A stretch of 64,000 bases of DNA from Gamarada debralockiae. Its lineage: Eukaryota; Ascomycota; Leotiomycetes; Helotiales; Hyphodiscaceae. Below, one piece after another: positions 217-64,000 of this stretch (positions are counted from its first letter, which is position 1; each line of letters starts with the position of its first letter). The position numbers and the translations under genes are program-made. Under the pieces are notes generated by a model. That model was not told the DNA's origin. It made no database searches and was given only the letters and a program-made list of their open reading frames with translations. Where the stretch lies: positions 97,081 to 161,080 of the forward strand of contig NXFV01001589.1 in assembly GCA_002803225.1 (NCBI GenBank). Reading direction: 5' to 3'.

Positions 217-609
217 ATACTATCTTCGACTATTGGCACCACCGGAGGGACTTGGAAGAAGTCTCGAGCCCCTGAGCCGTTCAATAGAAAGGATCTGAGA
301 GCGTTCATTGAAGGCGGAGAAATTTCAATCCACGACGTGAATCCCGATCACGCAATCAACAATGCGAGAACTATCTTCGGCACAGAGCGTGGTCAACTGG
401 GCAGCGGCCATCGAAAGATCGGAGTTGGCGATGAGATTTGCCTCCTATATGGCGGCAGAACTTTAGATGTTATTCGACCAATCGGGGAGGAGAAAAAGCA
501 GCCTATATTCCAGTTTGTGGGCGATTGCTATGTACCTGATCCAATGCGAGGACGGGTTCTCGAGGATCTGGGAGAGGGCAAACTGCGCAATGAGTGGATT
601 GACTTGTGA
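217..609 (+). pseudogene. 3' remnant of a HET-domain (heterokaryon incompatibility) protein gene
   Basis: One frame is open from just after a stop at 214-216 to the TGA at 607-609. The translation matches the C-terminal module typical of fungal HET-domain proteins: a 'GDEICLLYGGRTLDVIRP' segment (normally a G-D-x-[IV]-x-[VL]-x-x-G-G-x-x-x-x-x-[LV]-R-P pattern) followed by 'FQFVGDCYVPDPMRG', the usual VGE-CYV-GIMxGE-like tail. No start codon, HET domain (SHTW, WIDA/CIDQ) or obvious acceptor is visible upstream. Other frames in 1-216 are interrupted (stop at 139-141), so the rest of the gene is decayed or lies outside the window. It could be the last exon of a gene beginning upstream, but the stops in 1-216 make a relic more likely. 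The assignment rests on the family tail pattern only. Confidence 0.55.
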
Positions 610-32766: not shown

Positions 32767-35700
32767 TTAGAAGGAGAATTCCATAACCAGAACCCGACCG
32801 GTGCTATACCCAAATGCTACAATACCGTCTTGAACAGCAACACAGTCTGGTCTATATTCGGAAGGAAGCCAAAGAAGGTTCTCTCCATTCCGGCTCACCC
32901 AATGTCTACCGACAAATATAGACGGCGAAAGACTTGGTCTAGAAAGAGCTGCGTTACTGGAAAGATATGTGCTATATAATAGTCCTCTGTCGGTCTGTAG
33001 AAATGTTCTATCATCAGAGAATGAGAGACTGTTAATAACAGAGTCAATGTGAAGTGTCTGTAGCACCGCGCCCGAGCTCGCGTCCCATAGCTTGACTGTC
33101 TTGTTGTACGACGCCGTCGCCAGCGTCTTGCCGTCTGGCGAGAAGGCCACGGCGTGGACCCAATCCAAATGGCCCTCGAGCGTCTGCAGCACTGCGCCTG
33201 AGCTCGCGTCCCACAGCTTGACTGTCTTGTCGTGCGATGCCGACGCCAGCGTCTTGCTGTCTGGCGAGAAGGCCACGGCCAGGACCCAAGCTGAATGGCC
33301 CTCAAGCGCCTGCAGCACCGCGCCCGAGCTCGCGTCCCATAGCTTGATTGTCTTGTCGTACGATGCCGCCGACGCCAGCGTCTTGCCGTCTGGCGAGAAG
33401 GCCACGGCCTGGACCCAACCCGAATGGCCCTCGAGCGTCTGCAGCATTGCGCCCGAGCTCACGTCCCACAGCTTGATTGTCTTGTCGTGCGGTGCCAACG
33501 CCAGTGTCTTGCTGTCTGGCGAGAAGGCCACGGCCTGGACGGCAAGCGAATAGTCCTTGAGCGTCTGCAGCACTGCGCCCAAGCTAGCGTCCCATAGCTT
33601 GACTGTCTTGTCGTACGATGCCGACACCAGCGTCTTGCCGTCTGGCGAGAAGGCCACGGCCTGGACAGAATCCGAATGGCCCTCGAGCGTCTGCAGCACC
33701 GCGCCCGAGCTCGCGTCCCACAGCTTGACTGTCTTATCGCGCGATGCCGACGCCAGCGTCTTGCCGTCTGGCGAGAAGGCCATGGCGTGGACGGCATGCG
33801 AATGGCCCTCGAGCGTCTGCAGCACTGCGCCCGAGCTAGCGTCCCACAGCTTGACTGTCTTGTTGTGTGATGCTGATGCCAGCGTCTTGCTGTCTGGCGA
33901 GAAGGCCACGGCCTGGACCCAACCCGAATAGCCCTCGAGCGTCTGCAGCACCGCGCCTAAGCTAGCGTCCCATAGCTTGACTGTCTTGTGCAATACTGAT
34001 GCCAGCGTCTTGCCGTCTGGCGAGAAGGCCACGGCCTGGACCGAACCCGAATGGCCCTCGAGCGTCTGCAGCACCGCGCCTGAGTTAGCGTCCCATAGCT
34101 TGACTGTCTTGTCGTGCGATGCCGTCGCCAGCGTCTTGCCGTCTGGCGAGAAGACCACGGCAGGGACACTATGCGAATGGCCCTCGAGCGTCTGCAGCAC
34201 CGCGCCTGAGTTAGCGTCCCACAGCTTGACTGTCTTGTCGTGCGATGCCGTCGCCAGCGTCTTGCCGTCTGGCGAGAAGGCCACGGCCTGGACCCAATCC
34301 GAATGGCCCTCGAGCGTCTGCAGCACCGCGCCTAAGCTAGCGTCCCATAGCTTGACTGTCTTGTCGTGTGATGCTGATGCCAGCGTCTTGCTGTCTGGCG
34401 AGAAGGCCACGGCGTGGACAGAATCCGAATGGCCCTCGAGCGTCTGCAGCACCGCGCCTGAGTTAGCGTCCCATAGCTTGACTGTCTTGTCGTGCGATGC
34501 CGTCGCCAGCGTCTTGCCGTCTGGCGAGAAGGCCACGGCAAGGACACCATGCGAATGGCCCTCGAGCGTCTGCAATAACGCACTCCAGCTGTTCTCAACC
34601 TTTGGTAATCTTCGTACCCATCTAGGTATGCAGTCTTCAAACTGCTTTCTTATTATGCTCGTCATTGGTGTGAAGACAAGGGTGCTGCAGTATGTCTGAA
34701 GGGGAGCCTGCTCAATTGCTGACCGATTATAGAGAATGAAACGCTTTGTGTCATGGACGAAAGTCGAAAGAGAGGGGCAATCACTAGGCTAACTGATATG
34801 TTAGTAAAATGGTCTTGCCACGCTCGAGGCTAACTAACAGGAGCAAACGACTCTAACAAGTCGATGGCATGGATCCCTTCGGAAACCCTCCCCATCCACC
34901 CAAGAGCCTCAAACCAATGAAGGAGATGCTTTCGCAAGAACTGATATACTTGGTCGTCATCGCGAAGCTGAGCACCGCTCTTCTGAAGATGCTGGATCCA
35001 GTAGAGACATGCATACTGGAGCTCTGGGGGGAGATACTGTTCTACTCGGCTGCTGTCAACGTCGGTTGTAAGTGTACCGGGTGCGCCTAGGCCACATATG
35101 TCCTGCTTTAGTAACGATGACATAAGCCGTATACAGTCTTCGGCTAGCGTCTGATGTGCTTGCTTCACCTCTACCCAGAGATTTGGTTCCTGGCACCTGT
35201 TGCTGTTCAGGAGAAAGTCCCGAAATGAAGGATGATGGAGACGAAGGGGCCGGGTTTTGTCCTTCGGAATATCTAGGATAGAATGCAGGTCCTCCACTGT
35301 CTGATTTAGGTCCTCCTGGGGAACACGCAGTAACTTGCTCAGGGAGTATGCAGAAAGCGTTACAAAGAGAATGACGATGCTTCCGAGCACCTGCCTTAGC
35401 ATACGATATGAGTCATCTTTCTCCTCATCTGTACATTTGGAGGGGATAGAATACATGATAACAGTAGTGTAGATCTCGTCGAGGTGTTTCTCCGGTGCTG
35501 TTATGGTGCTAGTGCTGCTGCTGCCCTTAAGAATTGTATCGAGTCTTCTAGCTGCATGTCGTTTTCCTTCACGGATAAATCGGCAGGCAGTTGCAGCCCA
35601 GATGAACAGTCCGCTCGCAGCCTGAACCAAGCATCTAATGACCTCTTTGCCTGGCCAGCTGGCGTCCAGAGAACGTTCCTGTCCAATGAATTTAAGATGA

Positions 35701-37231
35701 TATTCGAGGAAGATAGTGATATCGTGGTCAACAATCGACGGCGATATATTGTGGAGCACGAAGTCTTGGTATTCCTCATCCGGTATCTGATAGAACCCAT
35801 GCCGAATTGGGATCTCGGGTCTGCTCGTCAGAAAAACGCGTAGCCGTACTCTCTCTAACAATCGAACCTCGGCCAAGAGGTGTAGGAGGATACGGATGTC
35901 GTTTTCGTCGTCGCACTCATCAAGCGCATCAACTACAAGAACGTACAATGATTGGCAGCCATTACTGTCCAACTTCGAAAGCGGACGCAGGACAAGCTGA
36001 TGCCACTGTTCGCGGAGCGATTGGCTCGCTATGTTGCTATCCCGCGTGATTGCATCGCAAATATGCTGGTGAAGAGTCGGTATGCTGCTCGCAAGCTGGC
36101 GCGCAAGGCTTGTAATGAACTTGCCTGCATGGCCGACATCCCCACCGCCGCGCGAGAAGAAGAAGCTGGCCCCTAAGCATCCGCGTTGAGATTGTGTTCC
36201 CGCAATGGTGCGAGCGATAGTCGACTTTCCCGTGCCGGCTAAGCCACTAAGCCAGAAGATACACCGCCCATTTTGTCTATCTGCCCAGTTGTTTATCTTT
36301 CGAAGGAGGTCGACGCGCGTATCAGGGAGGCAAAGAGGCTCATGTTGCTTCGTGTAGGAGTTGAAGGGCGAATCGACGGCGTACGGTAGGCGATCAACTG
36401 GGTCGGCTGTATATCCGCTTTAATCAGTAATCCGTCTTTAGTACAGCGACCCAGAATAGTCATGGTTATGTACTTACGATCTTGTCTTCGACGTGAGTCC
36501 TTGTCGATCTCCTCTTGAAGCCGCTTGAATGCACTCGCCGTCCCCTCGCCATAGATAAGCGGCAAATAGATGTTGAAAATGCCTAGCAAAGAATAAGCCC
36601 TATCCTCTTCACGCTTAGTTTGACGAGTCTTCGCCCATGACATGCGCTCCGTGACGCTGAATTCGGATAAGGGGGTGCCTTGAAGAGCCTGAACCGCGAT
36701 TCCTGTTATCTCGTGAAGTAGTGGCCCTAGGGACCTCTTGTCGTCGAGTCGCTTTCCCTTCGAGCAGAAGAATTCTACCGAAGACGGAGCAAGGAGCTCT
36801 TGAAGTGTCCAGCCGCGGGTAAACCATCGGCTTTTGCGCAAAGCCAGTTCCCATGGTCGCGACGACGGGATGTTCTTGTCGTGATCATCGCTCGAAACAT
36901 CTGACAGGTACACATAGCATTTTGCCGCATTGCGATACCAGCGAAACATAGAGTTGATAGCCTCCGAAAGCTCAGTATTGTTCGATTTGTCGATGCAGCA
37001 AGTGTCAACCCAGAAGTATTGCAGACCATCGCGCCCAGCTTGCTGTGCACAGAAGTGAAGTTTTCTGTATCCAGCTTTCGTCTTCCTAGGTCCTATCGTC
37101 AAGTCTTTAAAGTTGACCTCTTCAAGATCCTCTCCCCATGTGTGTGAAAGGATAGCATAAGGAGAGATGTTGTCAATCAAATCATCGGTTAGGCTGAACT
37201 CGCCGTTCTCGTCAACTTGCAAAAGACGCAT
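32767..37231 (-). CDS. HET-NACHT-WD40 (HNWD) NOD-like receptor, HET-E/HET-D/HET-R type
   Basis: STAND receptor of fungal non-self recognition: an N-terminal HET cell-death effector, a NACHT nucleotide switch and a WD40 ligand-sensing propeller. Exons (minus): 37231-36478, 36406-34839, 34788-32767, about 1447 residues. HET motifs: [38 protein letters not shown]: Walker [10 protein letters not shown] in exon 2, the [18 protein letters not shown] block, Walker [13 protein letters not shown], and LTSRPE. A helical winged region ([10 protein letters not shown]) leads to exon 3. There, 12 near-identical ~42-residue WD40 repeats ([31 protein letters not shown]) are followed by a degenerate tail ending in [13 protein letters not shown]. 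Introns 36407-36477 (GTAAGT...ACAG) and 34789-34838 (GTTAGT, TACTAAC, TAG). No frame break is seen, so the gene looks intact. Recognised ligands of such receptors in Podospora include HET-C variants; the ligand here is unknown. Confidence 0.93.
33060..34574 (-). repeat. Twelve 126-bp tandem WD40 repeats
   Basis: Within exon 3 of the HNWD gene, units of 126 bp (42 codons) repeat about 12 times with very high nucleotide identity; GCGTCTTGCCGTCTGGCGAG recurs in almost every unit. Differences cluster at a few codons: the two residues after GHS (HG, DS, DW, HS, GS, GW, HA, DS, LA, GW, AW, DW) and the residue after the following Val (L/H/Q/P), plus the N/S-S/L pair before GAV. Unit 5 lacks one codon and unit 10 has one extra Ala. 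This is the pattern of concerted evolution with hypervariable positions described for HNWD genes. Confidence 0.92.
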
Positions 37232-56859: not shown

Positions 56860-57998
56860 CGTGGCTTGAAAGCTTGTGCGACGGCTGGTTGAATGTAATT
56901 GAAGAAGCGGAATGGTCGGAGTAAGCAGAAGATAAAGATCGCGATTTGTGATGCTGATTATCTGATGTGTTGATTGGCTGTCCTGGACAGGGGTACTTTC
57001 AGGGGTAGTTTTTCCGGTCGACTGAGCAATACTTTGATAGACCGAGATAGACTAGGTGCCTGTTAAAGGGTTTGGTTGATGTGAAGTAGTAATGTACTCG
57101 AGAAGAAGCCTTGGAAGAAGCTCAGACAAGAAATCCGGGCAGAGACGAGGAAACTCTGAGGACAGTCGCATGAGACTACTGGCAGTAGATTTCGAGTAAG
57201 GTCTAGAGACAAGCGTGTAGATTTGTTAGAAGACAAAGGCAAGGAGACGACTACAGAACATCCTCAAGATGTACCTACTGAATGACTCCAGCGTATGGCC
57301 ATGCTCTGGCTTTTGTACGACCGGTCGGCCCGGAATGGGCTGCTGCCTTGATTGACTTGCCTTGCTGGTCGAGAGTAGCTGACGTACCACTTAATGATCT
57401 ATCCTCACATGGAGACGCAGTCCATACTCTTCACATTTACAAACGGAGTTTTCGATTTCAGCGTTTGTCTTTGGAGGCATGCTCGGCCAAAAATATGGGG
57501 CACGTGTCGTGCGGCGGGAGACATTCCTCGAAATGGCTTCAATGAGCACTGGTTCATATAGAACTCTTCCAATGGACAAATGGATCAATGCGAGTCCTTG
57601 ACTCGTGGCAGTCGGACTCCAATCTTGTTCTCGGAATTGATCAAACTTCGCTGAGAGAATGACAAAATGAAATGAACCAGCTGGTCGCGAAGAGACAAAC
57701 TTTCGCCTTACCCTCTATGGATCTTTGATGTAATAATAAGATTTGCCTAAGTCAATATCTCGTATTTAGGCTGTTGATCAAGTACGATGAATTGAGAAAA
57801 TGCCCGTGATTGATGACTCCAGAAGCAGCCCCTCCGCTTGCCCTCTCGCGTCTCTCCCCAAAAAAGGAAAGTCGAATCGCGTCATGCTCACAAACCCCAC
57901 TTCCCCCACCAAACCTCATTTCCATCTATCTCTCACAATGGACTTCTTAATACTTTTGCACCTGTCTTCACCGATCTACTCTTTATCGTGTGCTCTAC
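56860..57998. promoter_or_regulatory. Divergent intergenic region, ceramidase / lipid-kinase genes
   Basis: About 1.1 kb with no supported gene between two divergently transcribed genes of lipid metabolism. It holds both promoters. A short frame at 57282-57545 is not protein-like. Confidence 0.4.
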
Positions 57999-59484
57999 AT
58001 GGCAGCCCCACCATTCTCCAACTCTAGAGCTACCGACGACGTTGAACGCTCTACGAGAACAGAACAAGTCGGTGATAACCTCACCTACAACGATGGACTT
58101 CTTGCATGGAACGGAGGACAACTCAATGACGAGGATATTATAACAGTGACGAGGACAAAGAGCAGTGGGATTAATGCGGTGGCTGGATACACAATCTTCA
58201 GTCTCGAGCCAGCAGACGCGTCCCAGCCCGCTCCTCCTCCTACACCCTTCAAACTAACGATAACATCTGCCTCAACCCTCCCAGAAGCCTTCCTCGATAA
58301 GCACCTCTTTCAAGGTCTGCCGGTGCACTTGAGCCCTGATGCGAACGTGCTTCATGTCCTTATCTCGACTCTCTCAGGGACAGGTCTAGCCCCTCAATTC
58401 TTTGCGGACATATTGGAGCCTCTGCTCGGCGCGATAGGACTCAAGAGCTCAGACTACCACGCTGTGCAGACTAAGAGCGAGGAGTCAGTGAAAGAATTCG
58501 CGCGGTCGCAGCTGTTGGTACGAGCGAATGAAGGAAAGAAGCAGACTGTCTTGATGCTTAGTGGTGATGGAGGTATGGTAGACACGATAAACGGATTATT
58601 GGAGACTGGGGAGCGATCAAGGTAACTTCAAACCTTACTACCTCTTCGCCCCTTCGTTTGATCGATTACTAACATTTCATACTATCAGTGCCTACACGAA
58701 ACCGATCCTCTCGCAGCTCCCTCTCGGCACAGGCAACGCCCTCTTCCACTCCCTCCACAAACAGTCTCCTCTCCCATCCCTCTACATCCAAGGCCTACGG
58801 ACCCTCCTTCATGGCACACCCCGTCCCCTCCCCATCTTCCGCGCAACTTTCTCAACAGGGGCGCGCGCACTCACCAACGAAGCCCAGACCGCAACCCCAC
58901 TCCATCACAATACACTCTACGGCGCCGTCGTTGCATCATACGGCTTCCACGCCACGCTCGTTGCAGACTCAGACACGACCGAATACCGCAAGCATGGGGA
59001 CAAGCGCTTTGGACTCGTTGCCAATGACCTTTTGAACCCACCAGGAGGAGGAAATCCACATGCATATAAGGCGGACGTCACGCTCACAAAGGCTAGTGGG
59101 AAGGAGGAATTGATTGCTAGGAAAGAACACGGATACATCCTCGCATCTTTAGTTTCAAATTTAGAGAGGATGTTTACGATTAATCCGGCGAGCAAGCCGC
59201 TGGATGGACAGCTAAGAGTGGTGCATTTTGGACCATTGGATGGGGACAAGACGATGCAGATCATGAAGGAAGCGTATAATAATGGGAATCATGTTGGAAT
59301 GGAGGAGGTGGGGTATGAGAGTATCGAGGGGCTGAGGATTAACTTCTTGGAGGAGGGCGAGGATTGGAAATGGAGGAGGTGTTGTGTTGATGGACTGATT
59401 GTAGGCGTGGAAGAGGGAGGCTGGATGGAAGTTCAGAGAATGGAAGGAGGTAGCGAGGTTGTGGAGATTGTTGTTGATGCATGA
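57999..59484 (+). CDS. Diacylglycerol kinase catalytic-domain protein (sphingoid-base/lipid kinase-like)
   Basis: Exons 57999-58621 and 58689-59484, intron 58622-58688 (GTAACT...TACTAAC...CAG), about 472 residues. The DAGKc nucleotide-binding motif reads LMLSGDGGMVDTINGLL, where most members have GGDGTxxEV, and the substrate/nucleotide loop is LSQLPLGTGNALFHS directly after the intron. A conserved region YGAVVASYGFHATLVADSDT and FGLVANDLL follows. It lacks the PH or TM parts of classic DAG kinases, so it fits the fungal sphingosine-kinase-like group. Start: ATG 57999 is the first in frame (a GTG lies 9 bases upstream). If it phosphorylates long-chain bases, it would act downstream of the adjacent ceramidase. 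GDGG instead of GDGT makes the exact activity uncertain. Confidence 0.82.
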
Positions 59485-59910
59485 GAAGAGGCCACTAGCG
59501 AAATCGGCTTCCACTTCTGAAAATTTACGGTCAGCCACATTCCCCAGCCACTTGACCTGACACTAAGCTACTTCTGGCTAGCTGTCCCAATCCCTGCATC
59601 AATCCTAATTTGATTGCTACACTCCGGCCTATATTTAATAGATCCATGTACCCAAAACACAGAACAACTCCGTATGTTGCTTGCAAACCAGCTTCAGATT
59701 TGTCATTCATCAAGACTCACTATTTTAATAGTATTACTACTCAGTGGGCCCACGCCCTGCAAAATCAGAATATACAAAGTATTTTGGATTCATTGATTAC
59801 AAAGTTATTGTATTTCTAATCCAACATTATTCATAAGCCATTGCCACTCCTGCGGCTCTTAGAGGGGTATAAAAGGATGTCATCCGCAATGGACGTTGGC
59901 GGGGGGAAGG
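59485..59910. other. Intergenic, nothing supported
   Basis: AT-rich, no coding sequence; lies between the 3' ends of the lipid-kinase gene and the WD40 relic. Confidence 0.4.
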
Positions 59911-60375
59911 TCAAGGGGAACTTGAGAAAGCAGATTCTGTAAATGGTACTCGACCAGACTGATAACCAAAACCAATAGTACTCCCGTGAACAGCAATGCT
60001 GCCTGGCCGATGCTCGGAAGGAAGCAAAAGAATAGTTTCCATGCCCCCACTTACCCACTGGTCCTTAACGAATACAGAGGGCGGATGATCTAGTCGAGAA
60101 ATAGCCGTGCGATCGGAAAGAATGCGTGTGTAATGGTCCCCTATCAGCCTTGAGGAATGCCCCATCATCAGAAAACGAAAGGGCCTGAATAGCAGCGTCG
60201 ACCTCGAGCGTCTGCAGCACTCCTCCTGAGCCGACGTCCCGGAGCTTGACTGTCTCGTTGTCCGACGCTGACGCCAGCAGCTTGCCGTCTGGCGAGAAAG
60301 CTATGGCGTTGATGTAGTCCGAATGGCCCTCGAGCGTCTGCAGCACTGCCCCTGAGCTAGTGTCCCAGAGCTTTT
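59911..60375 (-). pseudogene. WD40-tail relic of a NACHT-WD40 receptor
   Basis: Reading the minus strand from 60375: KLWDTSSGAV (the end of one WD repeat), one full repeat [40 protein letters not shown], then the non-repeat tail LSFSDDGAFLKADRG. At about 60140-60150 the frame shifts and the tail continues as DHYTRILSDRT, WVSGGMETILLLPSEHRPGS and FGYQSGRV. The same tail ([39 protein letters not shown]) closes the intact HNWD protein at 32.8 kb, so this is the end of a receptor of that family. It starts in mid-repeat right after the stop of the HeLo-like gene, which suggests a deletion removed the NACHT and most repeats. Confidence 0.8.
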
Positions 60376-60376
60376 A

Positions 60377-61372
60377 TTACTTGCTTGACTTGTAGAAAAA
60401 AGCATTCACGTCAACGTTATTAGCCACTCCAACTATCCCTCTTCCCCCTCGACTCGCAGAAATATTGCTGATATCCTGAGCGACTTGTGTATCTCTTCCT
60501 TGAGGATTAATAAGACCCACAAGAAGCTGACCGCCGTCACTCATATCGATATGATTGATCCTTTGTCCAGTCCGCAGCTGGTGTGTTTCTGAGAGGAGTT
60601 CCTCGAAAACCTTCCGAGAAGAGCGAAGCCCACTGATTTCCCTCTCAAGTTCGTCGACGACTTCTATCTGGGCATCACTTGACTGTTGGCTGCTTTCCTT
60701 AGACTGCGTAAGAGCAAGCTTCTGGAGCCTCATATCCACTTCTGCTGTTTGCTCGTCTGTCTCTATAATTGCTTGTGTTAACTCGACCTCCCTCGTCGAT
60801 AGTGTGGTCTTGATATCGTCTGTGATCTTGGATGAACGAGCGATAGTGAGCCTGTCGAAAACTATGTTAGTTTATATACTAATATTGTGGAATAACTTGG
60901 TATCTTGGTATATGATAAAAAGGGCGACCGGCACGTACAGAGTTGCAGTACCAACGGCTGCGTTAACGGTATCTTTGCATTTCCTAAGTTGCTCGCTCAA
61001 AATCTCAACATCCGCCTCTGCAAACAAACCGACGCGGACACGGTCCCACCAGTGTATCGCATCATCGGCAGAGTGTTTTGTCCATTTCTTAAGCTTTGTG
61101 CGAAACCTATTGCAAGCTCTTTCGCAATTGGCCGTAGCCAAGCTAAGTCCAGCTCTAGCGTTAGGACTGAGTATTTCAAGCGTTGGTCCTTGAAGCTCCG
61201 AATCCAGCGTTGCAAGCACTATTTCGACGGCGGAGAGCTCCTCCTTGAGATCTGCGATGGCTTCTGGTGCGTTCTTGACAGCTTGGATATCCTTGAGAAG
61301 GGCGGTAATGCTCTGTAGGGCAACGCTTGCTATGCCAACAGCACCTGCCGTAATGCTGAATGGATCCGCCAT
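60377..61372 (-). CDS. HeLo-like / fungal STAND N-terminal-domain protein, no NACHT (candidate cell-death effector)
   Basis: Exons (minus) 61372-60939 and 60851-60377; intron 60852-60938 (GTACGT...CTAAC...GACAG); 302 residues. The N terminus MADPFSITAGAVGIASVALQ is the usual start of the fungal STAND N-terminal (HeLo-like) domain, an alpha-helical module related to membrane-targeting HET-S/HeLo effectors. Helical features continue (DLKEELSAVEIVLATLDSEL, CERACNRFRTKLKKW). Residues ~180-235 are a Gln/Glu-rich coiled-coil. The C-terminal ~50 residues are Gly/Asn/Ser-rich: residues 271-293 (starting DISNISASRGG) resemble residues 12-34 of the divergent NLR. Stop TAA 60377-60379 is followed at once by the WD40 relic. 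It may be a full small effector or the truncated N-terminal part of a former NLR. The gene is intact. Confidence 0.75.
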
Positions 61373-61974
61373 GCCTGTTGGTGATCGCAGAGCTGCGAAA
61401 ACGTCGAGGACGTAGTAATCGTATATGTTTAATTGAATGCTCTCGCAAATTCGGTGGTTTTTATACTTGAGGAAGCAGATTTAATGAGTTGTTGGTAGGC
61501 TTCTTATTCACGACTGCACTAGTTGGATATCATCAGGCCTGAGGCAACACGCGGTCACGGGATAGCTAGGAATCCGCCCCTATCTAGGAGCGAATATAGG
61601 TAGAGCAGTAGTTTCGCGGCAGCAACCAGTATATAAGGGGGCAATTGAATTGAATTCTTTGTAGAATGAGGGTTACTAAGACTAGCTAATGTGTAAGCAA
61701 AATAGGCCTAGTTCTCCTATGCAATAAATGTCGGCCCCCACTCCCCATTAGCACCGACATAATCTTTTGAGGCTTCATTGAAGCCTGAGACACTGATTTC
61801 AACAACGGGGTCGTCAGCGCGGCCGATCCCGACCTTGGCATGCCACCTATATTTCACGACCAGCTTCAACGGCAGTGTTAAATTTATCCTTCATTCCAAA
61901 TTTTGCATCTTGTGACAGTTCAGCTCGTCCCACGATCCCCAAGATTCGCAACCTTCGTGAAATCCCAATTCACA
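61373..61974. promoter_or_regulatory. Divergent promoter between HeLo-like gene and NACHT-WD40 gene
   Basis: Six hundred bases separate the start codons of the two head-to-head genes, which allows co-regulation. No coding sequence seen. Confidence 0.45.
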
Positions 61975-64000
61975 ATGGCAGCCTTCGGCAAACATACACC
62001 AACCCAAAATATCTCGGGGATCACAGCTACTGATGGTGCAAATGTGTTTGCGGGGAGCAATACAACGTATAATATAACTAATAGTGAGATCTCAAAGGAC
62101 TTTTCCAAGCTATATTGCTGTACCGACACTAACACTATATCCTTCTAAAAGATCTACCTCAACTGCTGCCTTACGCTCCCGACGCATCTTTCAACGCGTC
62201 TGGGAAAGATGACCACCCTTACTGCCTGCCTGGGACTCGAGTCGAGGTACTAAAGTGTATTAGAACATGGATAGATGGGGACGACAAACGGCATATATTC
62301 TGGCTTGCGGGTTGGGCGGGGACTGGGAAATCTACAATAGCGCGGACGGTTGCTCGGGAACAATACGATAGAAAGCGTTTAGTAGCAAGCTTCTTCTTCT
62401 CAAGAGGCGGAGGTGATATCAGCCATGCGAGGAAGTTCGTTGGTACAATTGCAGCGCAGCTAGCCCACAAGTCTCCGCCTTTCAGGGACCTGCTTCGGAA
62501 AGCAATATCCGAAGACGAAGGCATTGTTCAGCGTGTCCTCAGAGATCAGTGGAGAGAACTCATTATTGGGCCGCTATCGCAACTAGAGGCTGGCTCGCTT
62601 CCGTCGCCTCTTATCATTGTGGTTGATGCGCTAGACGAGTGCGAGGAGACAGACATCAAACATGTGCTTCAACTTCTCGTCGATACTCAAGGATTAGATC
62701 AAGTCCATCTTCGAGTTTTGGTAATGAGCAGACCTGAGAACCAGATTCGAGATAGCTTCTCGCGATTCTCCGATGACAAACACCAGAAACTCGTCCTTCA
62801 CGACGTGGAAGAGTTCGTTGTTGATGGTGATATTTCGGCTTTTCTGAAGCACCACCTCTCGATAATCAGGCCGACAGAGCAAATAATTGAGCAGCTAGTT
62901 AGAAAGGCGTCATGTTTATTCATTTGGGCTGCGACTACCTGCCGGTTTGTTCTCGAAAAGAAAAAGTTTTCCAAATCGAGACTGGCTAAGATCCTTGAGA
63001 GTAACAGCACTACTATTATTGCGCCGGAAGAGCACCTCAACAAGGTGTACATCACTGTCCTCCAGCATTCTGTTTCCCCGGGCTACACAGATGAAGAAAG
63101 AGAAGAGATATATAACTTGCTAAGATATATTCTTGGAAGTATAGTGGTTTTGTTCGCCCCCCTTTCTGCCAACTGTTTAAGCAAGATACTCCAGGTCACA
63201 GAACAGGACATTAAAGGAATATTAGAGGATCTTCATGCTATCTTGGATATCCCAGAGGATCAAACCCGCCCGCTCCGTCTCCATCATCCTTCATTTCGCG
63301 ACTTCTTACTTGACAAAGATAGGTGTCGTGATCTAGACTTCCAAGTGGATGAGGAGGAAGCGCATCAGACTTTAGCCACTAGCTGCATACAGCTTATGTC
63401 AATCTCTCTTAAGCAAGACATCTGTGGTCTGGAGGCCCCCGGAGTGCTTGCGACTAATATAGAGAGCAGCCGAGTAGAGAAATGTCTTCCCGCAGAACTT
63501 CAATATGCATGTCTGTACTGGGTCCAGCATCTGAAAAGGAGTGGTGCTCAACTCTATGACCAAGTTTATCAATTCCTCCAGGACCATTTACTTCACTGGC
63601 TTGAGGCTCTTAGTTGGATAGGAAAGACTTCAGAGGGGATTCTTATGATATTCTCGTTAGAGGCACTCATTCCAGTAAGCCTTCTTTACGATATTTCTAG
63701 CGAATCTTGACTAATTTATACTAAGGCTGAGAAAAGCTCTAATCTATATACATTTGTCCATGATGCAAAGCGATTCGCCCTATACAACCGATTAGTGATA
63801 GAACAGGCGCCCCTCCAGCTATATTGCTCAGCTCTTGTCTTCGCCCCAGAGAAGAGTATTGTTCGGAGGCGATTTGAAAAGTATATCCCACCATGGATCA
63901 ACAGAAAACCAAAAGTACAAGTAGGTTGGAGCGCAGCACTGCAGACACTCGAGGGCCATTCCGACTTAGTCTACTCAGTAGCCTTCTCGCCTGACGGCAA
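61975..64000 (+). CDS. NACHT-WD40 NOD-like receptor (STAND), 3' end beyond window
   Basis: Exons 61975-62083, 62152-63674, 63726-(64000+). The first exon encodes a ~36-residue N terminus (MAAFGKHTPTQNISGITATD...) with no HET or HeLo domain but a Gly/Asn/Thr-rich motif at residues 12-34. Exon 2: linker LPQLLPYAPDASFN, NACHT with Walker [28 protein letters not shown], Walker [17 protein letters not shown], and a winged-helix-like [10 protein letters not shown]. Exon 3 starts FVHDAKRF and enters a WD40 repeat ([20 protein letters not shown]) at the window edge. Introns: 62084-62151 (GTGAGA, ACTAAC, AAG) and 63675-63725 (GTAAGC...CTAAG). The second lies at the same place as intron 2 of the HNWD gene, and the NACHT parts are close paralogues. 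Head-to-head with the HeLo-like gene. WD repeat number unknown. Confidence 0.88.

Follow-up and report, generated by a model that had tools for sequence, protein, structure and literature searches.

The window analyzed here is a 64-kb stretch of DNA, bases 97081-161080 of contig C802 (161,080 bases), from a source genome of 54.3 Mb in 1,112 contigs. Two genes lie head-to-head in its right-hand part: a minus-strand effector gene, whose ATG is at 61372 and whose stop codon ends at 60377 (302 aa), and a plus-strand receptor gene, which starts with an ATG at 61975 and stays open to the end of the window (635 aa visible). A divergent intergenic region of 602 bp (61373..61974, placed from the sequence and the gene models) separates the two start codons. 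The right edge of the window is also the end of the contig and falls inside the WD40 part of the receptor, so that just the first WD40 repeat can be seen. The introns of both genes are predicted ones, taken from our own gene models; they are plausible, and no break interrupts the visible part of either reading frame. The arrangement agrees with the original prediction, which had placed a HeLo-like protein devoid of a NACHT domain about 600 bp from, and divergent to, a NACHT-WD40 NLR devoid of an effector domain. The spliced effector protein matches PF17111 (HeLo-like, E 5e-22) and gave no NACHT match in a Pfam scan, and the receptor matches NPHP3_N, a NACHT-type ATPase (E 1.8e-31), while its N terminus matched no effector domain in a Pfam scan of residues 1-544. 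Directly behind the effector gene lies the 3' end of an NLR gene with a frameshift.

The first effector exon (60939..61372) encodes the first part of the HeLo-like domain and is followed by an 87-nt GT..AG intron (60852..60938), across whose junction relatives such as P0003 match in protein. The second exon (60377..60851) encodes the remaining helical domain, two C-terminal repeats, both of which were found again in 15 of 25 relatives, and the stop codon. Repeat R1 spans residues 239-259 (60509..60571) and repeat R2 residues 268-288 (60422..60484); behind R2 the protein ends in a short tail (60377..60421, including the stop codon) with two Phe, the second of which is invariant in a 12-row alignment. 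The effector C terminus is equal in length to that of P0003 and similar in sequence, and the repeat region of the window is single in the genome at the search sensitivity used. On the other strand, the first receptor exon (61975..62083) encodes a short N terminus bearing a third motif copy, R0, at residues 9-29 (61999..62061). A 68-nt intron (62084-62151) leads to exon 2 (62152..63674), which encodes the NPHP3_N match (residues 73-230, about 62259-62732) together with the part that follows, and a 51-nt intron (63675-63725) leads to exon 3 (63726..64000), in which the first WD40 repeat begins before the contig breaks off. R0, R1 and R2 are all supported by shuffles, profiles, position counts and a pattern check.

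The original prediction drew attention to a 23-residue ungapped match with 6 identities between the two proteins, and this is indeed present between effector residues 271-293 and receptor residues 12-34, with 11 positive BLOSUM62 pairs and a score of 25. When compared with three kinds of shuffle (5,000 each), the best 17-residue ungapped match between effector and receptor has a p value of 0.006-0.007 and the best 21-residue match one of 0.021-0.023, and a gapped local alignment gives p 0.014 (2,000 shuffles). In the shuffling check that had been proposed along with the prediction, the pairwise alignment thus came out moderately better than chance (p about 0.006-0.02); taken alone, it would be weak. 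The prediction had overlooked R1, which lies 29 residues upstream of R2. When these two effector repeats are compared with each other, 2 of 5,000 shuffles are as good at 17 residues and none of 5,000 at 21 residues; a second method finds the repeat significant in the effectors of the window, of a further locus of the same genome (C45) and of Penicillium riverlandense, and not significant in those of another locus (C644, p 0.46) and of Aspergillus aurantiobrunneus (p 0.70).

The shared motif stands out more clearly when profiles are used. An effector-repeat profile was made from 20 R1/R2 repeats, taken from 10 foreign effectors (the window effector and its nearest relative P0003 being excluded), and an R0 profile from 5 R0s of other sources; each in turn was run over the six frames of the window (127,996 positions). 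The R0 profile ranks the window R0 (47.8 bits), R2 (17.6 bits) and R1 (15.0 bits) first, with the next site at 11.5 bits, and the effector-repeat profile ranks R2 (39.8 bits), R1 (36.1 bits) and R0 (16.6 bits) first, with the next site at 12.9 bits, so that with either profile the next site falls 3.5 to 3.7 bits under the weakest of the three. Matches of a profile to its own class are expected; what argues most strongly against a chance resemblance is that the profile of each protein finds the motif of the other. Applied to the N-terminal 60 residues of 167 fetched NLRs, the effector-repeat profile makes five stand out (14.1-20.2 bits; next 6.0); these are the five foreign R0s of the R0 profile, counted as one lineage because they are close kin of the window R0. 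When the first 40 residues of the window receptor were shuffled 3,000 times, the 16.6 bits of its R0 were never reached, and one of 2,681 unrelated 40-residue NLR pieces exceeded them. In the reverse direction, four further HeLo-like proteins encoded in this genome reach at most 6.6 bits with the R0 profile at their C termini, and the distant relative P0026 reaches 8.5 bits, against the values of R1 and R2 above.

These features can be compared with the HRAM motifs surveyed by Daskalov et al. 2015 (PMC4518210). There, two 21-residue repeats are found on HeLo-type proteins and one on the neighboring NLR; Gly is at position 19, residues at 5, 8, 10, 16 and 18 are in general hydrophobic, R/K is preferred at 15, and the loop between the repeats has 6-18 residues in 154 of 155 proteins. 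The charges of R1 and R2 are opposite at the outer positions 4, 6, 7, 11, 12 and 13, receptor motifs are less charged than effector motifs, the NLR copy is generally of the same subfamily as the neighboring effector, and aromatic residues are often present in the tail behind R2. In the window, two imperfect 21-residue repeats likewise lie at the C terminus of a PF17111 protein. The adjacent NLR has one copy, R0, which shares Gln at position 3 with R1 and R2 and is recovered by a profile made of effector repeats only.

Position counts were taken over 16 effectors (the window and 15 relatives) and the R0 of 6 receptors; these sequences are related, and the counts are not independent. G19 is found in 16/16 R1, 16/16 R2 and 6/6 R0, an invariance that is partly by construction since the register was set on this residue. 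Hydrophobic residues (Ala counted) occupy positions 5, 8, 10, 16 and 18 in 15, 15, 16, 16 and 16 of 16 R1 and in 6, 5, 6, 6 and 6 of 6 R0. R2 is hydrophobic in 16/16 at positions 5, 8, 10 and 18 and in 0/16 at position 16, where all have Gly; the window itself has L (R1), G (R2) and V (R0) there. The loop has 8 residues in the window (259 to 268) and in all 15 relatives. Charges of R1 and R2 are opposite rather than alike at position 4 (13:0), 6 (1:0), 7 (7:0) and 12 (6:0), with no charged pair at positions 11 and 13, and also at position 9 (9:0), which is absent from the published list. K/R is at position 15 in 11/16 R1, 15/16 R2 and 3/6 R0 (Q, R and N, respectively, in the window), and R0 has a mean of 1.5 charges per 21 residues versus 4.2-4.4 in the effector repeats. 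Gln is at position 3 in 15/16 R1, 15/16 R2 and 6/6 R0, including all three window copies. The window pair thus seems largely to obey the HRAM rules, with Gly16 of R2 as the clear departure.

The PP core NxGxQxGxN is absent from effector residues 221-302 and from the first 61 residues of the receptor, the PUASM pattern FxGxGxQxxGxGxF is absent from the pair (the effector being PF17111 and not PNP_UDP), and, with regard to the sigma motif (about 40 residues, in which two submotifs recur three times), neither protein matched a sigma or Ses_B family in the Pfam scan at E 1. PF11558, the model of the HET-s prion domain (HRAM1), has no match on the effector at E 1, and a genome search with it gave no match at E 0.001, with 14 controls equally silent; according to the survey (PMC4518210), it matched just 38 of 155 HRAM proteins and missed 117. 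The original prediction had supposed a different or uncatalogued motif, and this does not hold once R1 is added, as the HRAM rules then fit at nearly every position. Judged by its sequence, the pair adds a member to the already described HRAM family, and its motif is not uncatalogued in kind. The Gln at position 3 points to HRAM2 as the nearest class, HRAM2 having been compared by its described rules: as given in PMC4518210, it has in common with the window Q3, G19, most core positions, a loop in the published range and an R0 with Q3. Table 1 of that paper contains two HRAM2 proteins of Aspergillus fumigatus.

Several known systems share the layout of the pair. HET-S/NWD2 of Podospora anserina (HRAM1) similarly has two effector repeats, one receptor repeat and adjacent genes, and has N at position 3 where the window motifs have Q (PMC4518210); its effector carries the HeLo domain PF14479 (PMC9815663), unlike the PF17111 of the window. 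HELLF/FNT1, also of P. anserina, has a HeLo-like killer with two C-terminal repeats and an adjacent NLR gene (PMC7889193). HELLF is assigned there to HRAM5, whose mark in PMC4518210 is Q at 16; the window has Q at 3, and none of its three residues at 16 is Q. The latter source gives an HRAM4 motif for a Podospora HeLo-like protein, so the two sources may disagree on the class. The PP-motif system HELLP/PNT1 likewise pairs a HeLo-like effector and an NLR with a common short motif (PMC5485727), but the window pair lacks the PP signature with its GxQxG core, and the PP motif is single-copy on the effector (PMC4518210).

The conservation of the motif in related pairs, which had been suggested as a check, is borne out by the occurrence of both repeats in the 15 effectors noted above and of R0 in related receptors. 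Effector relatives occur in Aspergillus, Penicillium and metagenome records, and both named species with an R0 receptor, A. aurantiobrunneus and P. riverlandense, have the effector too. In A. aurantiobrunneus, the contig given for effector P0020 and the one given for R0 receptor P0148 both have 37,317 bases, and we read them as one and the same contig. In P. riverlandense, the contigs listed for effector P0008 and R0 receptor P0149 differ in size, and the genes are thus probably non-adjacent. Two metagenome proteins suggest a further adjacent pair, since a 3,962-base contig is listed for both: P0015, the first exon of an effector, and P0034, a receptor whose predicted start falls after the R0 exon. 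For most effector-bearing relatives an R0 receptor was not found in our searches, which were non-exhaustive, so that species with a single partner found prove little. Partners do not always align best with each other: the R0 of A. aurantiobrunneus reaches a score of 39 with the effector of the window and 35 with that of its own species.

Two further divergent effector-NLR pairs with HRAM-like repeats are present in the same genome. At C644, a HeLo-like effector (301 aa) is divergent from a complete 1,220-aa NACHT-WD40 receptor, and at C45 a HeLo protein with two repeats is divergent from an NLR with one. The C45 HeLo protein matches PF14479 (E 2e-47) and the HET-s HeLo structure 2wvo (E 5e-52), and the HET-s prion domain 2kj3 only at E 0.06. 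By eye, the C45 and C644 repeats look like HRAM3: in strict register, C45 R2 and C644 R1 have H at position 3, C45 R0 has K, and the remaining copies are shorter and alignable only with a gap. The C644 R0 scores 35 in alignment with the C45 effector and 28 with the effector of its own pair, and the alignment of the C644 pair is not significant (p 0.06). A similar receptor start lies beside a decayed HeLo gene at C626, and further copies of the C45-type C terminus are present at C41, C345 and C87, the last of these with an internal stop, and in part at C244. This genome also appears to encode a protein whose end is PP-like. We think it unlikely that the window motif constitutes a discrete HRAM subclass, recognizable by the invariant Gly16 of R2 and the receptor form QxISGI(S/T)ATDGA, and a private channel without cross-seeding to the other HRAM-type effectors of the genome.

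An AlphaFold2 model of the relative P0003 (mean pLDDT 77, pTM 0.67) is helical up to residue 239, after which R1 and R2 show short strands in equivalent positions with a block pLDDT of 55-70; at this low to modest model confidence, the strands are at most suggestive of an amyloid beta-solenoid fold. Structural comparison lists MLKL and the plant Rx coiled-coil among many helical bundles, matches that would be compatible with a membrane-killing bundle, without proving one.

The original prediction of an effector-receptor pair with a common terminal motif, in the layout of the amyloid pairs, is upheld by the three motif copies, the cross-protein profiles and the conservation. Together with the two open gene models and the fit to HRAM, these make it, in our view, very likely that the pair is a switch for cell death with two components, of the HET-S/NWD2 type. 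Points against it are Gly16 of R2, the residues at position 15 in R1 and R0 of the window, the missing PF11558 match, the probable non-adjacency in P. riverlandense, the relatives for which no R0 receptor turned up in the non-exhaustive searches, and the inexact pairing in the alignments. Ligand sensing, templating and killing are taken from HET-S/NWD2 and HELLF/FNT1 (PMC5485727, PMC7889193). By this analogy, ligand binding to the WD40 part would be needed to activate the receptor, whereupon the NACHT domain would oligomerize and gather many copies of R0. As a member of the motif family, R0 would then adopt the fold of a single beta-solenoid amyloid rung and template R1 and R2 into two more rungs, and, as in HET-S and HELLF, this templating would free the HeLo-like helical bundle to attack the membrane and cause cell death.

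Three other readings have to be weighed against this switch. The motifs may be homologous and mutually binding and yet recruit the effector to the receptor by a non-amyloid homotypic contact, for which the Gly16 of R2, unusual for the published core, could be an indication; the charge pattern, the loop and the position pattern match motifs that include HET-s and HELLF, which are proven amyloids (PMC4518210, PMC7889193), and we give this reading little probability. Very little falls to the idea that the motifs are ancestral and this copy is a non-working relic, in which the locus has been rearranged or the unseen WD40 part of the receptor is broken. The frameshifted NLR end behind the effector and the truncation of the WD40 array by the contig end would allow for such a relic, and the open frames, the plausible introns and the agreement of the effector C terminus with that of P0003 argue against it.

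The remaining alternative, which the original prediction itself had raised, is convergence: Gly/Asn-rich ends of unrelated proteins would align by accident, with no signaling between them. The pairwise p values when taken alone, the one unrelated NLR piece scoring above R0, and several other fetched fungal NLRs that by eye are Gly/Asn-rich at the N terminus would all be consistent with this. Both the six-frame scan and the profile test on NLR N termini disfavor it, since each protein's profile finds the motif of the other as the best remaining sites in the window, just 5 of 167 N termini stand out, and the C termini of the four other HeLo-like proteins of the genome, like the distant relative P0026, stay under R1 and R2; we consider it hardly probable at all.

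As a two-component switch of this type, the pair would be a conserved further example of amyloid-based immune signaling, with relatives in Aspergillus, Penicillium and metagenomes. One genome apparently combines a Q3-type system with further systems of HRAM type and with a protein whose end is PP-like, and this coexistence would provide a natural setting for asking how parallel prion-like signals remain separate.

Two more divergent effector-NLR pairs, with repeats resembling the HET-s-related amyloid motif (HRAM), are present in the same genome at loci L042 (contig C644) and L049 (contig C45), and at L048 (contig C626) an NLR whose N terminus resembles R0, the receptor's N-terminal copy of the motif, adjoins a HeLo gene that is interrupted by stops. 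A HeLo-like protein is also encoded on the minus strand of contig C171 (L043, 4470-5357; PF17111, E 1e-16). Its C terminus contains GxQxG, the core of the PP motif known from the HELLP/PNT1 amyloid-signalling system, but not the full NxGxQxGxN, and its Ses_B match is sub-threshold (E 0.006); perhaps this protein is a separate amyloid-signalling effector.

Within the window, the effector stop codon is separated by 3 bases from the start of an NLR 3'-end fragment in the same orientation (59900-60373, minus strand), which comprises a WD40 repeat and then, in a different frame, a typical NLR C-terminal tail (the tail recognized by eye). A deletion or recombination seems to have left this fragment as a scar. 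Two overlapping open frames also lie in the window (57951-59484, plus strand) and may represent a single gene; the first has a sub-threshold Pfam match to diacylglycerol kinase (E 5e-4), and a search of the second for a Pfam match at E 0.01 found none.

The window also contains a second NLR (34839-36395, minus strand), its NACHT-type domain being followed by WD40 repeats and preceded by a reading frame that bears a HET-domain-like signature (identified by eye and with a short text pattern). When the N termini at 25 NLR loci of this genome (L012-L035 and L041) were surveyed, 17 of them showed a HET-domain-like signature in the 1,500 bases that precede the NACHT exon, again using a short text pattern rather than a model. 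Among the others, inspection by eye revealed a PNP-like frame at L034 and a HeLo-like frame at L035. Across the NLR loci of this genome, one NACHT family seems to be joined to differing N termini.
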